DNA from: Candidatus Solibacter usitatus
GTDB taxonomy: Bacteria; Acidobacteriota; Terriglobia; Bryobacterales; Bryobacteraceae
Length of the DNA stretch: 32,614 bases
Reading direction: 5' to 3'
Assembly (NCBI GenBank): GCA_016191645.1
Contig: JACPVQ010000183.1
Location: 1 to 32,614, forward strand
The position numbers and the translations under genes were made by a program. Each line of letters begins with the position of its first letter. Within the stretch, counting starts at the first letter, position 1. The notes beneath the pieces are model-generated. The model ran no database searches. It saw nothing but the letters and a program-made list of their open reading frames with translations, and was not told the DNA's origin. Below, piece by piece: positions 5,880-29,425 of this stretch.

Positions 5880-5994
5880 GTGGGGCAAGTCGCCAGACTT
5901 GCGACGGGATCTCCAGATCCCGTCACGAAGCGTTTACGCACTGCCGGCAGAGCCGGTCTGGAGACCGTCTCGCAGATCTGGAGATCTGCCCCAC
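5880..5994. repeat. Palindrome-cluster element, copy 1 (intergenic)
   Basis: This 115-bp element lies between ftsK and the kdsC-like gene and is bounded by GTGGGGCA (5880-5887) and TGCCCCAC (5987-5994). It contains five hairpins. H1 is at 5885-5902 (7-bp stem, loop GCCA) and H2 at 5903-5924 (9-bp stem, loop TCCA). H3 is the palindrome CTGCCGGCAG at 5941-5950. H4 is at 5954-5967 (5-bp stem, loop TGGA) and H5 at 5972-5989 (7-bp stem, loop TGGA). The left flank (GTGCTGCTCT) also matches copy 3, so the true left edge may be about 20 bp further out. It could act as a terminator or mRNA-processing signal between the two genes. Confidence 0.9.
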
Positions 5995-6608: not shown

Positions 6609-8840
6609 ATGAGGGAAGGGCTGGCGATTGCAGGAGCGGCTTTCGCCGCATTATCCTGCTGGTCGCTGGGCCGCCGCTTCTCACTTCCCTTCCCGCTGCA
6701 GTTCGCGGTGGGTGCCGCGTTGTTGAGTCTCGCCGTCTTTCTGCTGTTTTCTCTTCACGTGGCGAAGCTGCCGGCGTTTCTTGTACTCGGAGCCGTGTGC
6801 TGTTTGTGGGGCTACTCTGTGAAATCTTCCCTAGCTGCTGTGTGGGGCAGATCTCCAGATCTGCGAGGCGGTCTCCAGACCGCCTCCGCCGGGAGTGACA
6901 GTATGTCCGAGGCGGCCGCGTCGCGGCCGCTGCGGGATCTGGAGATCCCGCGGCAGGTCTGGAGACCTGGCCCCACAAGGCCTGAGAGGATTCTAGAGCT
7001 TAGCAGTACATTCCTGCTTCTTTTGCTGTTTGGATACTACGCATGGCATGCGCTGGCGCCTGAAACACAGAGCGACGCGCTTCATTATCATCTGGCTCTT
7101 GGAGCACAAGCGGCCACCACTGGCGGTTTTCCAAAGCCGATTTCGTTCTTCACCCTGATTCCACAAGGCACGGAAGCACTGTTCGCATTCGCCTACGCGA
7201 TCGGCGGCGAATCCGCAGCGAAACTTCTGCACCTTGTGTTCCTCATTCTCACCATCCCTCTGTTCCATCGAATCGCGCAACAACTCAACCTCGCTCCGTG
7301 GAGTACCGCCGCCGCGTCCCTTCTCTACACCGCATCGCCCGTCGTCGCCGTTTCCGCCACGTGCGCTTACAATGACGCCGCGCTGGTATTGTTCACGCTT
7401 GCCGTATTCAGCCTGCTGCTCACGAACACGACCAACTACTTCGCAGCGGGGCTCTGCGCGGGGTTTTGTTACGCCATCAAATTCACGGGAGGATGGGTGG
7501 CGCTTCTCGCGTTGCTGTTCACAGTGATCCGCCGCGGCACAAAACCCGCCTTGCAGCTGGCGGCGGGAGCGGCGATCGTCGCCGGCCCCTGGCTGCTGCG
7601 AAACGTGCTGCTCACGGGAAATCCATTTGCCCCGCTGATGAATTCCGTGTTTCCAAACGCGTACTTTCATCTCAGTTCGGAAAACGTTTTGGGAAACTAT
7701 CTGCGCACGTACGATGTTCGCAACTTGTGGTCAATTCCCATGGAGCTGACCACGCGCGGCGGAGTGCTGCAAGGCCTGCTGGGGCCGGTATGGCTGGCTG
7801 CGCCGCTGGCCTTGCTTGCGTTGCGCAAACGCGAGGGACGCATCCTGCTGGCCGCGGCCGCGCTTGCCGCCGCTCCGTGGTATCTCAATATCGGCACGCG
7901 ATTCCTAATGCCCGCGCTGCCGTTCCTCGCGCTGGCGTGGATGTCGACGATGCCGCGCGTTGCGGCGTTCGCATTGGCGTTTATTCACCTCGCCGTCTCC
8001 GTCCCCCCCGCACTTGTGCTGTATGTGCCGCAAACAGCATGGGTGCTGCCATCGACGCCGCGGCCTGTCGAAGAATGCTGGGATTGCAAACTGGTGCGCC
8101 TCATCACGGACAACACGAGCCCGGCGGACAGAATTCTCGATCTGGCTGGCCTACCTGCCGCGGCCGCGCGGCGCGAAATCGTCAACTACTGGCAGAGCGC
8201 AACCGGAGAACGGATCGTCCACGATATGCAATCCGCGGCTACGGAGAGAATGATGGAATGGAATGCCGAGTTTCCGCCGCGCGAATTGACCGCGGTGCGC
8301 GCGCGATTCCCCGCGACGCAATCGCTCCAGGCTTCGTTGCACGAGGCCGCGTTTCGGCAGGACGGCGGCGGCATGTTGAGTGCGTCCGTTTTATGGAAGA
8401 TCGAATCGTGGCCGAACATTTGGGAAGCGGGTTTAGTGTTGGATCGCAATCTTGCCACCACATGGCGAACATGGGAGCCGCTGCGTGAAGGGATGTACTG
8501 GCAGGCGAGCTTCGAGAGGCCTTACAGAATTTCCGGTGCGCGCTTCGTGGGCGGCCAGTCGATGTCCCCGGCGGCCTTGCAACTGTGGGGATACGACGGA
8601 AACACGTGGCACAATCTGGGGGTTCCGCCCGCGACGCGTCCCATGCCTCAACTCAATCTGATTTCACAAGCGGCTCGAATGCTTCGCAACGAAGGCTTTC
8701 ACTTCGTGGCGGCGCAAAACGGAGACGACGGCATGGGCCGGCTTGGGAAGAGAATTGCAAATGATCCAAGTGACTGGGGATTGGCGAAGGTTGCGGCTTG
8801 GCAGGAGATCACCTTGTACCGCGTGATTGGAACAAGGTGA
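6609..8840 (+). CDS. Polytopic membrane protein, glycosyltransferase family 39-like, carrying an in-frame repeat element
   Basis: This 743-residue integral membrane protein has about ten to twelve hydrophobic segments up to about residue 470 and a soluble C-terminal part (about 490-743). The first periplasmic-type loop has [15 protein letters not shown], similar in place and character to the acidic catalytic loop of GT-C enzymes that use polyprenyl-linked sugars. I call it GT39/ArnT-like with moderate confidence. Residues about 78-123 ([15 protein letters not shown]... to RQVWRPGPT) are encoded entirely by the palindrome element at 6842-6976. The element falls in a loop between the second and third membrane segments and preserves the frame. 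ATG 6609 follows the phosphatase stop by one base, so the two genes are coupled. The 3' end overlaps the convergent thiE-like gene by 32 bp. Confidence 0.72.
6842..6976. repeat. Palindrome-cluster element, copy 2 (inside a coding sequence)
   Basis: This 135-bp element is bounded by GTGGGGC and GCCCCAC. H1 is GCAGATCTCCAGATCTGC at 6847-6864. H2 is at 6865-6886 with a 9-bp stem around TCCA. H3 is at 6912-6930 with GCGGCCGCG/CGCGGCCGC arms around one base. H4 is at 6932-6951 with an 8-bp stem around TGGA, and H5 at 6954-6969 with a 6-bp stem around TGGA. Its length is exactly 45 codons. It is open in the sense frame of the membrane protein and also in one antisense frame (6499-6978). No clear target-site duplication is visible. 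Confidence 0.92.
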
Positions 8841-11879: not shown

Positions 11880-13196
11880 CTACTCGCCGATTTTCAAAGC
11901 GCTGCGCAAGGCCGAAATCATCTCCCGTGCGTCTTCGCTTTTCGCCGATTCCGGCGCAAGGTGCAGGCAGAGTCCTTTGCGCGTGAGGATGTGGAAAGCG
12001 CCAACATCGCGCCCGATGAGAGTGTTCATGCGCAACTCTGTGATTTCCGATGCGGGGATGACGCGTGGAGCCATGCCGCATCCCGGCGTGAAAGCGAGAT
12101 TGGTTCCGCTGGTGGAAAGAAGCGCGCCACAACCGTTTTCGAAATAGGCAGGGTCGCCAAAACGTGAGGTGTCGTAAACGACACGCATCGGCTTGTCGTT
12201 TGCGCCGCGCGTAACGTAGGCGGGCATCCCTTGCGGAGCGGCGGCGTATTGGTCGACGGGACGAACGAAGGGCATCATGCCGCCGTAACCGGGAGGGCCC
12301 TGCGCTACTGGCATCTGCTGCGGGTAGCCGGGTTGCGGCTGTTGCTGCGGATACCCGGGCTGGGCTTGTTGCTGCGGATAACCCGGCTGCGGCTGCTGCT
12401 GTGGATACCCGGGTTGCACTTGCTGCTGTTGCGGATAACCCGGCTGTGCCTGCGGATATCCAGGTTGCGGTTGCGCCTGCGGATATCCAGGCTGCGGCTG
12501 CTGTTGCGGATATCCCGGTTGCTGCTGCGGATATCCCGGTTGCTGCTGCGGATAGCCCGGCTGCGGCTGCCCGTAACCGGACTGCGGATCGCCATATCCC
12601 GGCGCATACGAAACAGCGCCCGGGGCGGGACCATAGCCCGGAGCAGGAGCATACATATTGTTAGGCGGCGGTTGATATCCCGGCGAGCCGGCAGGAGCGC
12701 CCGGGTAACCGTATCCACCTTGAGGCTGTTGCATCTGCTGCTGCATTTGCTGCTGCTGGCGCGCCTGTGCGCGATATTGTTGGATAGTATTCATGGTCGT
12801 CAGCGCAGTGCCCATGATCATCATGAGTTTCTCCGCACCTCCGCGAGTGGCGGGTCCCGCCGCCTGACCGGCGATGCGCTTGTCCAGCGATGGATCCAGA
12901 TTCCGCGCTACTTCGGCGTAGTCGCGTGCCTGTGCCGCTTCGCCCGCTTCTTCCGCCGCGGCGCTCATCAGCTTGAAAATAGTAGCGCGCGCGGCCGGCT
13001 CGTTGGGCACCACTTCCAACCAGCGCCGGTACTCGCGCAATGCCGCCGAATAGTTGCCTTCGCTTTGCGCAGCTTTCGCGGCCGCGGCAATCTGTTTGCT
13101 CAGTTCCGGGTCGGCCTTTACGGAGATGCGCTCCGCGGCGGGCATGCTGGAACTCGCCAGGGCGATCAGAGTCAGGATGGTTACGTAAGGTTTCAT
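11880..13196 (-). CDS. Secreted PQ-rich repeat protein of unknown function
   Basis: I do not recognise this 438-residue protein. It has a signal peptide ([22 protein letters not shown]) and an alpha-helical TPR-like region at about 28-120 ([16 protein letters not shown]...). A long low-complexity middle (about 145-320) is built from repeats of the type GYPQQQPQP, and a folded-looking C-terminal domain of about 110 residues follows ([19 protein letters not shown]... to LRSALKIGE). ATG 13196 is the start because GGAAGGA lies five bases before it; the frame itself runs on to a GTG at 13211. It follows the CHAT gene by 19 bp and is likely co-transcribed. The PQ region may serve as a flexible wall-spanning or adhesive linker; that is inference. 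Confidence 0.8.
12290..12770. repeat. Degenerate tandem repeat encoding GYPQQ/PQP units
   Basis: This is an in-gene low-complexity stretch with repeats of about 21-33 bp. On the plus strand it shows recurring CGGATATCC/CGGATAACC and TGCTGCTG words, encoding Gly-Tyr-Pro-Gln-Gln-type units on the minus strand. Units differ at synonymous positions, so it is an ageing coding repeat and not a CRISPR array. Long Leu/Arg-rich reading frames opposite it are by-products. Confidence 0.85.
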
Positions 13197-16314: not shown

Positions 16315-16325
16315 GATTGCGCGCC

Positions 16326-17642
16326 CTAGTTGCCCCCGCCGCCGGCGACGATGTTACCACCGCCTGCCGCGACGATGTTGCCGCCGCCCGCTGCGACGAT
16401 GTTGCCGCCGCCCGCAGCCACAATCTGGCCCGAGTTCAGAACCGCCGGGACAATGCCGGCTCCGTCATTCGCAACTACGTTGCCGCCGCCCGCCGCGACG
16501 ATCGAAGCTCCGTTGGGAATGACAACGCCTGCTCCGCCCTTTCCTAGCAACGCGTTGCCATTGTGGCTAAGTACGTTGGCGACTTGTCCCTGCTGGTAAG
16601 GCGCCAGTTGGCCAATACCCATGAATCCGTTGGCACGGAACAACATCCCCGGCCTCCATTGTTGATTCGTCATTCCATTGCAAGCCGCAATTCGAACTTT
16701 CTGTTCGCCGAACACCCACAGGACGTCGCGAGTGGGTTCTAGTTCCATGCACATGTTGGTAACGACACTGTTTTCGAAGACTCGGATCTCACCCCGTTCC
16801 GTGAGCCGCCAGCCGACGTTTCCACTGCGCCCGCACTGTGCCGTCTTGACGTACCTGCTGCTCCGGTCCACATCGAGACAGGCGCTTCTGCCTCCCCAGT
16901 CGCGCAGTTCGCCGTTGTTCATGAACACGAACTGCTCGTTCAACTCGCTGTTGCATTCATAGCCGATGATATCGACGCCATAACCTCTTTGTCTACCGCG
17001 AACGTTGAGACACTTCGCGCCCATGCTGCTCACAAAATGGTAGGACATGCCGTTGATGTTCACACGCGCAGGCGATTGCAGCGGCGGCAGCGGTTGCGGC
17101 GGCGGTTGCACGGGCGGTTGAATCACCGGGCGAGGAGCCGGAGCAGGCGCGGGTGGTGGGGTGGAGGGCTGCCCCAGCGCAATCGCATCCCATTTCTGGT
17201 TCGGCTCATTGATGCAGGTCCACAGCACCATTCCATTGCCCGGACGCGGATCGGCATTGCGCACCGCAACGCATTGACCGTTGTATGCGTTGCTGATGCT
17301 TCTGCCGCCGGAATTGATGGTCCAACGCTGGTTCGTTCCACCGTGGCAATCCCACAACCCCAGCGTCGGCGGATTCGTATTCATGAAGGCGTCCAGGCAC
17401 TTGCCTCCAATTTGAAGCGCGCCGGCTTGGCCCGCGGGAGCAACCGCGTTGAACGTGGTCCCCGTCGTTTGGCAGGACAGCATCGCCAAAGTGTTGCCCG
17501 CGCGGTAATCCGCGTTAGGAACGCCAAAACAAAGATTGTTGAATGGTGAGCGAATCTGGATGGAATCCGCCTTTGCGTTTCGCAGACCTGGAATGATGAT
17601 CCCCAGAGACACGAGTAGTGACAGACGTAGAGTGTAATTCAC
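16326..17642 (-). CDS. Secreted ricin-type beta-trefoil lectin with glycine-rich repeat tail
   Basis: This is a 438-residue secreted protein with a signal peptide of about 26 residues ending AKA-DS. A first beta-trefoil (about 27-157) has QxW motifs in GGTNQRWTI and EPNQKWDAI. A proline-rich linker follows (about 160-195), then a second trefoil (about 200-340) with NEQFVF and NQQWRPG. The tail (about 385-438) contains repeats of the octapeptide IVAAGGGN. Ricin-type domains bind galactose-like or other glycans. The start is GTG 17642, supported by AAGGAGA eight bases upstream. Its N-terminal half is a close paralogue of the protein at 17761-18963. The CHAT gene follows after 11 bp. The repeat tail could fold as a short beta-solenoid; that is inference. 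Confidence 0.82.
   Translation of the reverse strand: MNYTLRLSLLVSLGIIIPGLRNAKADSIQIRSPFNNLCFGVPNADYRAGNTLAMLSCQTTGTTFNAVAPAGQAGALQIGGKCLDAFMNTNPPTLGLWDCHGGTNQRWTINSGGRSISNAYNGQCVAVRNADPRPGNGMVLWTCINEPNQKWDAIALGQPSTPPPAPAPAPRPVIQPPVQPPPQPLPPLQSPARVNINGMSYHFVSSMGAKCLNVRGRQRGYGVDIIGYECNSELNEQFVFMNNGELRDWGGRSACLDVDRSSRYVKTAQCGRSGNVGWRLTERGEIRVFENSVVTNMCMELEPTRDVLWVFGEQKVRIAACNGMTNQQWRPGMLFRANGFMGIGQLAPYQQGQVANVLSHNGNALLGKGGAGVVIPNGASIVAAGGGNVVANDGAGIVPAVLNSGQIVAAGGGNIVAAGGGNIVAAGGGNIVAGGGGN
16329..16505. repeat. 24-bp tandem repeat encoding IVAAGGGN
   Basis: On the plus strand the unit is of the form GACGATGTTGCCGCCGCCCGCT. There are three to four near-exact adjacent copies at 16330-16430 and a further diverged copy around 16480-16505, separated by non-repeat sequence. 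It encodes the octapeptide IVAAGGGN on the minus strand at the extreme C-terminus of the lectin. Confidence 0.85.
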
Positions 17643-17718
17643 GGTTTCTCCTTATTAGATTGCGACTTTCCGGGTTGCCGATTGCCCGTACATTCGGCTG
17701 CATCGATGTTCAACGCGA

Positions 17719-17760: not shown

Positions 17761-18963
17761 CTAGCGGCCTCTGGCGTTTTGCACCTGTTGCGCCGACGGC
17801 GGCGGCGGGGGTGTGTTGATCTGATATAAGACGGGCGGCTGGCCCTGCCATTGACGCCTCGTTGGAACGGACTGCAACGAGTAGCCGCCCGGATCGGCGC
17901 ATACGCCCCATGTCTGCGTCATCGAGTTTCCGATGGAAGGCGCCCACCACGTTTCGCGAAAACGGCCCGAACAACAGAATCCCGCCCCGTGGTATTCCGA
18001 GATGTTAGTACCGCCCGGCGCGCAGAGTTTCACCGTGGACGCGGTTTCTCCGGTTGCAACGCGTGAACTCGGCACGGGGGAAAGGTCGCTCGGCCCGGAC
18101 GGAATGGTTTGAAACCAGCCGCGGCCGTTGGCAACGTCGTTCATCGCCATCTCCCACTCATTGGAGCAGGCCGATGTTTCCGGAGTTTTGCCGCACACCT
18201 TCCCGTTCGAATTGTTGACACAACAGTTGTCGTGCTTGATACTGCCCGGAACAATCCAACAGTTCCGATAGCCGCCATTCTCGTTACTACAGCCGAGTTT
18301 GAGCGGCAGCAGGTCTGAGCGCCCATTGGGCAGCGTGATGCCGGAGCCGTCGCATCCCTTGCCTACCGCGCCAAAGCAGTATTCGTACTCGCCCGAGGCG
18401 TTTGTCATCTTCGGACCACTTGGCGCCACGGGTGCGGGGGCACGTACGGGGGCCGGCGCGGGAGGCGGAGGCGTCTGCGCCAACGATGTAGTCCACTTCT
18501 GGTTTGGCTCATCGATGCACCTCCAAAGAACGATTCCGTTGCCCTGACGACGGTCCGCGTTGCGAACCGCGACGCACTGTCCGTTGTAAGAGTTGCTGAT
18601 GCTCCTGGTGGCAGGATTGATGGTCCAGAGCTGGTTCGTTCCACCGTGGCAATCCCAAAGCCCGAGTGTCGGCGGATTGGTATTCATAAAAGCGTCCAGA
18701 CACTTGCCGCCAATCTGAAGCGTTCCGGCCCTGCCGCCGGGTGATGTCGCCGTGAATACTGTTCCCGGCATGAGTGCGTTCGGCGAGGACAGGCAGGGCC
18801 ACATCACCAATGTATTGCCTGCGCGGTAGTCCGCATTGGGAACGGCGAAGCAATAGTTGTTGAATGGCGATTGAATCTGGATGGTGTCGGCCGCGGCTTG
18901 ACGCAGCCCGGGGATGACGATCCCCAGACACAGAAGCAGTGATATACGTAGTAAGCGATTCAT
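17761..18963 (-). CDS. Secreted ricin-type lectin with cysteine-rich C-terminal domain
   Basis: This 400-residue paralogue of the neighbouring lectin has a signal peptide (MNRLLRISLLLCLGIVIPGLRQAAA). One beta-trefoil (about 27-157) has GGTNQLWTI and EPNQKWTTS motifs, followed by a proline-rich linker. The C-terminal domain (about 185-375) is unrelated to the paralogue and holds at least a dozen cysteines, with words such as YCFGAVGKGC, HDNCCVNNSNG and GAGFCCSGR. I do not recognise this domain; it looks disulfide-stabilised, as expected for an extracellular protein. ATG 18963 is preceded by AAAGGAGA. It lies 34 bp after the hypothetical gene upstream and 118 bp before the next lectin. Confidence 0.8.
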   Translation of the reverse strand: MNRLLRISLLLCLGIVIPGLRQAAADTIQIQSPFNNYCFAVPNADYRAGNTLVMWPCLSSPNALMPGTVFTATSPGGRAGTLQIGGKCLDAFMNTNPPTLGLWDCHGGTNQLWTINPATRSISNSYNGQCVAVRNADRRQGNGIVLWRCIDEPNQKWTTSLAQTPPPPAPAPVRAPAPVAPSGPKMTNASGEYEYCFGAVGKGCDGSGITLPNGRSDLLPLKLGCSNENGGYRNCWIVPGSIKHDNCCVNNSNGKVCGKTPETSACSNEWEMAMNDVANGRGWFQTIPSGPSDLSPVPSSRVATGETASTVKLCAPGGTNISEYHGAGFCCSGRFRETWWAPSIGNSMTQTWGVCADPGGYSLQSVPTRRQWQGQPPVLYQINTPPPPPSAQQVQNARGR

Positions 18964-18997
18964 AGGGTCTCCTTTATGAAATAAATTTGCCGCGCAT

Positions 18998-29272: not shown

Positions 29273-29425
29273 GTGGGGCAGATCTCCAGATCTGCGAGGC
29301 GGTCTCCAGACCGCCTCTGTTGGGAGTTTCTCTGCGCTGAACACGTCTGCGCGGCAGCCGATGGCCTCTGCCGAGGCCATGCGGGATCTGGAGATCCCGC
29401 GGCAGGTCTGGAGACCTGACCCCAC
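29273..29425. repeat. Palindrome-cluster element, copy 3 (between convergent genes)
   Basis: This 153-bp element lies between the convergent alr and metallo-beta-lactamase genes. H1 GCAGATCTCCAGATCTGC (29278-29295) and H2 (29296-29317, 9-bp stem) are identical to those of copy 2. H3 is new: ATGGCCTC/GAGGCCAT at 29361-29380. H4 (29381-29400) and H5 (29403-29418) are again as in copy 2. It ends in ACCCCAC. The upstream flank GTGCTGCTCT is shared with copy 1. Here it could serve as a two-way terminator. Confidence 0.92.

Follow-up and report, generated by a model that had tools for sequence, protein, structure and literature searches.

The closest described relatives of the DNA element analysed here are the REP and REPIN sequences with their RAYT genes, which together form the REPtrons of Pseudomonas and E. 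coli (PMC3116915, PMC6006769). REPs have been searched for by a simple rule, i.e. GTAG or GTGG at a distance of 0-2 nt from a hairpin stem of 7-20 whose loop is 2-5 (PMC6006769), and have generally been reported to be biased towards sites between unidirectional and convergent genes (PMC3733652). They are also described inside open reading frames (ORFs) in several phyla, where they add amino acids, which has been suggested to be neutral in linkers or loops (PMC3733652). Within the Acidobacteria, TIRtrons with RAYT-like TIRYT genes between inverted-repeat flanks are reported for K. versatilis, T. saanensis, A. capsulatum and G. mallensis, and their TIRs are described as partly double-palindromic and partly members of repeat families (PMC3733652). 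The same phylum has Class 3 TnpA genes, for which about 600 hairpins with a CnGA foot are given in Solibacter usitatus (PMC6006769). A precedent of a different kind is provided by the Rickettsia palindromic elements (RPEs), palindromes of about 150 bp that can lie in frame in genes and then add a peptide at a tolerated place.

Here, we have analysed a window of 32,614 nucleotides from Candidatus Solibacter usitatus (contig JACPVQ010000183.1), in which detected inverted repeats turned out to be three copies of the same element, termed P in the following (table 1). With a probability of roughly 85%, copy 2 is a mobile hairpin element that belongs to a RAYT family, is REPIN-like and non-autonomous, and has landed in frame in a loop of a membrane protein. 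The genome is a draft assembly of 4.47 Mb in 267 contigs and is 79% complete; the census of P copies covers 788 kb of it, i.e. 137 stretches plus the window. The window also has repeats of other kinds, i.e. in-gene tandem repeats at 12309-12566 and 16318-16527 that encode low-complexity tails of the PGYPQQQ and GGGNIVAA types, and two adjacent paralogous genes, ricin-lectin-like by eye, with DNA stretches that are 79% and 74% identical (17190-17653 / 18493-18974).

Table 1. Positions in the window of the P copies, the host gene and the remnants of the outer repeat T.
Feature	Position	Strand	Context
P copy 1, 115 bp	5880..5994	-	between co-directional genes; called intergenic
P copy 2, 135 bp	6842..6976	+	in frame in host gene
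P copy 3, 153 bp	29273..29425	+	between convergent genes; called intergenic
Host gene, 743 aa, multi-pass membrane protein	6609..8840	+	GT-C-like fold matches; residues 79-123 element-encoded
T remnant, outward-pointing	6812..6838	-	25/27 bases match T consensus
T remnant, diverged, outward-pointing	6980..7010	+	23/31 bases match T consensus

A P unit is composed of GTGGGG, two hairpins with TCCA loops (A and B), a spacer, zero to three middle hairpins (counted by inspection), two hairpins with TGGA loops (B' and A') and CCAC. Copy 2, which reads GTGGGGC...GGCCCCAC, shows this layout with the GTGG tag, its two pairs of TCCA- and TGGA-loop hairpins on either side of a spacer and a single middle hairpin, and the final CCAC. 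The end of P, i.e. GTGG followed by G and a 7-bp stem (GCAGATC/GATCTGC) closed by a TCCA loop, with the second hairpin further in, agrees with the REP rule, which asks for GT[AG]G at 0-2 nt on the 5' side of a hairpin whose stem is 7-20 and whose loop is 2-5. The hairpins of P covary: changes on both sides occur in 28 of 45 pairs, compared with a shuffled mean of 8.4 and with none of 500 shuffles reaching 28. In the alignment of copies, helix 1 is paired in 99.6% of cells, and overall pairing drops from 97.6% to 31-38% when partners are slid by one to three columns, with the percentage paired being favoured by a structure for which one of these copies had served as the template. As the window does not match any RNA family in Rfam, P as a known RNA family was rejected.

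P is abundant, at numbers well above those expected by chance. The genome contains at least 61 matches to 6842-6976 at E<=0.001 (40 of 324 candidates scored) and at least 150 matches, two of them overlapping, to a P covariance model (best 150 of 2933 candidates scored). In the 788 kb of the census, 167 distinct copies or fragments were found; 133 of them are near full length and thus span nearly the whole inverted unit, which corresponds to the two inverted repeats per unit of a REPIN. A 23-base pattern of the P end, with up to three mismatches allowed, produced 426 matches (211 forward and 215 reverse), and the reversed pattern, used as a control, none; many of the end matches listed are inverted pairs, and at two ends each the total would mean about 210 P units. 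The 110 full copies fall into length classes of 149-155 bp (59 copies), 126-140 bp (24), at most 121 bp (14) and 172-177 bp (8), and all differ from each other. Since the closest pair of equal length is 99.3% identical, the spread of P seems to have been fairly recent. One copy appears to be split by inserted DNA, about 1.75 kb long, in which a 405-aa ORF is transposase-like by eye (L051:7415-9369).

About a third of the P copies are accompanied by an outer repeat of 65-66 bp, T, which is found within 40 bp of 57 of the 167 copies and points outward in all 57. T has a stem of its own (AAATCTTC...GAAGATTT) and is also present as tandem arrays away from the window (C51:18136-18333, C147:42084-42352 and C150:4904-5166). 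Because T remnants lie on both sides of copy 2, the insertion extends over about 6812-7010 and is larger than P itself; the score of the diverged right remnant is reached by 122 of 20000 background segments, taken from loci that themselves hold T copies. A parallel is seen in the acidobacterial MAG K_DeepCast, where an identical P-like unit of 118 bp with nearly identical T-like flanks was present at all ten loci examined (L192, L194, L196, L199, L201, L204, L206, L209, L212 and L215) in differing surroundings, with the contig stopping on one side at three of the ten. These loci suggest that P and the T halves would together form a mobile unit, about 214 bp in length, and show a T-P-T unit that has spread recently in a second acidobacterium.

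Which transposase could move P? Two Y1 transposase genes of the genome score above the Pfam cut-off, and a broken remnant is located on contig C66, with a partial P match nearby (L220:1863-1953). On contig C62, the left end of P (19-84) is followed by an ORF for a RAYT of 192 aa (72-650), the right half of P with middle hairpins (653-735) and a T remnant. The encoded protein reaches 83.1 bits against the NCBIfam model for REP-associated tyrosine transposases (NF047646, cut-off 80) and 39.8 against Pfam Y1_Tnp (cut-off 23), and also has a weak similarity to transposase chains of known structure (2xm3, E 0.0007). As this copy has a RAYT gene between P ends, i.e. a transposase gene flanked by the same repeat, P is most simply explained as a non-autonomous derivative moved by RAYT. 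The best reading of P is that it arose from the RAYT-bearing element by internal deletion, and we infer from the REP literature that RAYT moves it. As in IS200/IS605 and REP systems, RAYT would bind the P hairpins in single-stranded form, cleave the DNA at the tag and insert the unit at another site. The C62 gene is the only one of the two full-length RAYT genes that is flanked by P ends; the second, on C167, encodes a protein 50% identical to the first and has a different GTGGGG hairpin upstream, with no CCCCAC found downstream. In relatives, 8 of 29 RAYT loci (L246-L274) are bounded by GTGGGG on the upstream and CCCCAC on the downstream side, both within about 260 bp, a count that comes without a chance control, with hairpins of other sequence than P, and 21 lack one or both exact end motifs. 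Perhaps the RAYT genes bounded in this way belong to a wider acidobacterial family.

In other genomes, few matches to P were obtained. P DNA was matched in at least 6 of 101 genomes including its own (eight candidates scored per genome), with the other five matches being weak and partial, and in none of 11 same-genus relatives under the same scoring. The covariance model with stricter filters (E<=1e-6) found 4 of 41 genomes, i.e. its own, one of the same genus, in which the 12 matches are all much weaker (best E 1.2e-10), and two with one match each. When genome contigs were scanned for the end pattern, the matches listed, from which records near the own genome are possibly missing, included at least six stretches from the MAGs SRVP_5, K_DeepCast and HOT.MAX.089. 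The units in these three MAGs are related to P but differ from it, with 23, 54 and 25 matches to the model, respectively.

At the host gene, the preliminary description had seen a 135-bp copy of exactly 45 codons free of stops, inserted in frame between two membrane segments, and this is what we find. Codons of the host gene begin at 6843, i.e. in frame 2 of P, so that residues 79-123 are derived from copy 2 without a stop, and the frame of 743 codons is intact. Where the window protein has 69 residues (66-134), all 22 aligned homologues have 17-30; the excess of 39-52 residues has a median of 46.5, close to the 45 codons of the element, and an earlier alignment of 14 loci had revealed the same shorter stretch. 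The alignment comprises 22 of the 29 loci L010-L038; omitted were L014 and L031, which start at a contig edge, the short L023, and L033, L036, L037 and L038. Matches to the window protein, paralogues included, are present in 72 of 101 genomes. The aligned homologues are at most 47% identical overall, which places the junctions approximately, and the T-P-T insertion seems to have replaced most of the native loop.

As the draft is split into 267 contigs, contains a large repeat family and has some P copies at contig ends, one has to consider that P was put into this gene by a repeat-driven chimeric join during assembly. Yet both flanks of the insertion align in the right order and frame to the same homologues, with up to 36 of 59 residues identical for 6-65 and up to 280 of 590 for 135-743. 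A chimera was therefore judged unlikely for the host gene, and we assign such an artefact a nearly negligible probability.

An AlphaFold model built on the 22-homologue alignment has a mean pLDDT of 90.9, and its only run with values below 50, residues 81-118, is located between two helices (54-78 and 125-149), with the T-derived residues modelled as the ends of these helices. The element-encoded segment is thus predicted to be a disordered extra loop, and hydropathy also supports a loop between membrane segments. Foldseek found PglB, AftD and ArnT as best matches (E 5e-4 to 6e-4, TM 0.31-0.37 on the query), from which we read the protein as GT-C-like at the level of the fold; no Pfam family was matched at E<=0.001, and matches to NCBIfam were all below cut-off. 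In the order of events that we envisage, a T-P-T unit would have landed in what we take to be a variable loop ahead of the GT-C-like core. With hardly any stops in P and a net change that preserved the reading frame, the gene stayed open; the protein is presumably made and functional, and the added loop would probably be neutral.

The in-gene position of copy 2 is exceptional. A home-made gene finder, which used codon scores from 19 window genes and framed 77 of 78 pieces of these same training genes correctly, placed 156 of the 167 copies in intergenic regions, 7 overlapping a gene end, 1 at a gene end and 3 internally; as the finder began the host gene inside the element, copy 2 is counted among the seven. 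P thus has the high copy number and mainly extragenic location of REPs. When genes were called on both sides, the neighbours of intergenic copies were convergent in 61, divergent in 4 and co-directional in 63 of 128 cases (61:4, p = 4e-14). Neighbour pairs without P included 57 divergent, 11 convergent and 89 co-directional ones, with loci that were chosen around P being no fair background, and all adjacent gene pairs with gaps >30 bp were 78 ++, 75 --, 68 +- and 61 -+. Median distances of P are 41.5 bp from 218 facing 3' gene ends and 58.5 bp from 86 facing 5' ends.

Convergent sites, closeness to 3' ends and covarying hairpins would also suit a repeat that mainly acts as a 3'-end regulatory RNA or terminator, with the in-gene copy being an accident of this use. 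However, a similar bias has been reported for REPs in general (PMC3733652), and it would be expected of any element whose insertion is not tolerated in promoters and genes. Moreover, the window is devoid of Rfam matches and the RAYT-bearing copy suggests an origin as a transposon, with function and mobility not excluding each other, and we consider a primarily regulatory nature of P very improbable. For a REPIN-like mobile element, selection would normally remove insertions within genes, which would leave surviving copies mostly near gene 3' ends.

How often, then, is P read through? A scan for frames that are open across P and coding-like on both sides detected 3 of 167 copies, i.e. those in the window gene, at C10:31812-31912 and at C146:11450-11602. 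The window gene passed narrowly on its upstream side (4.2 versus a threshold of 4); its coding score is low just left of the insertion, though homology is clear there. The C10 case (L180) is a P unit of 101 bp in a YfhO-like membrane protein, with the insert being absent in 18 of 18 aligned homologues (18 of the 23 loci L223-L245); given this length, it must have been the net change, with the flanks counted in, that preserved the frame. At C146 (L050:2416-7506, minus strand), an outer-membrane barrel protein, with the barrel profile extending to 816/838, continues through P into the next gene, which by eye has a signal-like segment of its own. This may be a gene fusion or an assembly join, with an artefact being more possible than elsewhere since two different genes are joined. 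L102, called internal by the gene finder, failed the scan, and by eye no formamidase-like tail was recognized downstream. At two further loci (L047:735-871 and L147:2502-2654), signal-peptide-like starts, again by eye, directly follow P; as no start codon was seen in these segments themselves, P may supply it. Candidate C-terminal tails are present at L061, L070, L051 and L154.

Such cases raise the question whether P could be a coding palindrome like the RPEs, maintained for a useful or tolerated peptide module and inserting into genes in one frame as its way of life. All three read-through ORFs use P in orientation + and frame 2; when frames are weighted by how many full copies are open in them, a frame would be shared by chance with a probability of 0.032, a value which rests on 42 full copies with lengths divisible by three, a class that does not include the L180 unit. 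In two of the three, P lies between hydrophobic segments of multi-pass membrane proteins. P frames are also more open than shuffled ones: first-order Markov shuffles are open in 36% per frame and four of the six P frames in 84-92%, with 49, 71 and 94 of the 110 full copies being open in frames +1, +2 and +3 and 96, 92 and 101 in -1, -2 and -3. Also, in one frame copy 3 does encode a peptide nearly identical to that of copy 2, as the preliminary description had noticed. On the other hand, the frame in use, +2, is open in fewer copies than -3, only three copies are read through, and a dedicated coding element with an RPE-like preference for genes was rejected on location, i.e. the 156 intergenic copies. 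That P is held to multiples of three was likewise rejected, since lengths leave remainders of 0, 1 and 2 in 42, 36 and 32 of the 110 full copies. The shared frame, a pattern of just three cases, may be accounted for by the single base T that precedes P in 80 of 110 full copies, which would favour the successive codons NTG and TGG in genes. Openness looks like a by-product of GC-rich palindromes and, with nearly all copies being intergenic, is no evidence of selection for coding. Thus, we find an RPE-like nature of P improbable. A pre-adaptation to read-through, as proposed earlier, retains the unusual lack of stops and the single shared frame but is weakened by the limited openness of this frame, the intergenic location and the unconstrained lengths; similarly, 'exactly 45 codons' is true but loses importance with the 101-bp unit of L180 also being read through.

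A more far-reaching variant of the REPIN-like reading would be that P is moved by RAYT, favours a single reading frame and in this way has supplied membrane-protein loops again and again with one and the same disordered linker, and sometimes genes with a new start or a fusion (L047, L147 and L050). We regard this as doubtful at present; if true, it would be a transposase-driven counterpart of the Rickettsia elements.

In comparison with described systems, P resembles the REP/REPIN elements and RAYTs of Pseudomonas and E. coli in its inverted GTGG-tagged hairpins, high copy number, mostly extragenic location and link to a RAYT (PMC3116915, PMC6006769), but differs from these in having two hairpins at each end, zero to three in the middle and often an outer T repeat. 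With the acidobacterial TIRtrons it shares the phylum and RAYT-like genes with inverted-repeat flanks; by inspection, however, the C62 ends, GGGGCAGG and GGGGCAGA, do not conform to the motif GGGGWSAS given for some TIRs (PMC3733652). Class 3 TnpA systems are similar as Y1 transposase genes with many hairpin copies in the same phylum, yet their described foot is CnGA and the tag of P is GTGG (PMC6006769). In the host gene, P acts like an RPE, in line with the earlier suggestion of an independent case of this type. According to the descriptions of RPEs, however, nearly half of those first reported reside in ORFs (PMC10969869), in contrast to 3 of 167 P copies being read through, and P has a RAYT-bearing copy; this fits a RAYT-linked REP/REPIN, and in-gene REPs have been published beyond Rickettsia (PMC3733652). 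The latter include intragenic GTAG/CGTC REPs of O. terrae, Thauera, Xanthomonas and others (PMC3733652), which are like P in lying within ORFs but represent other repeat families and host genes, with the P case having been compared with 22 homologues and a fold model. A literature search, thin on subscription journals, found no published description of the P family or of an in-frame REP in Acidobacteria.

Overall, the original observation was right and even somewhat understated, and its interpretation as an RPE-like system is not borne out. Our analysis does not establish a new class, as in-gene REPs and acidobacterial RAYT repeats had already been described, but provides a well-resolved case of a protein loop derived from a mobile hairpin, for which a likely transposase was identified in the genome and a second example exists in another membrane protein. 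The known systems are also extended by a REPIN-like family from an acidobacterium, characterized by ends of two hairpins each and by an outer repeat. The in-gene copy 2 is a rare survivor within this new and well-documented family of the REPIN/RAYT kind.
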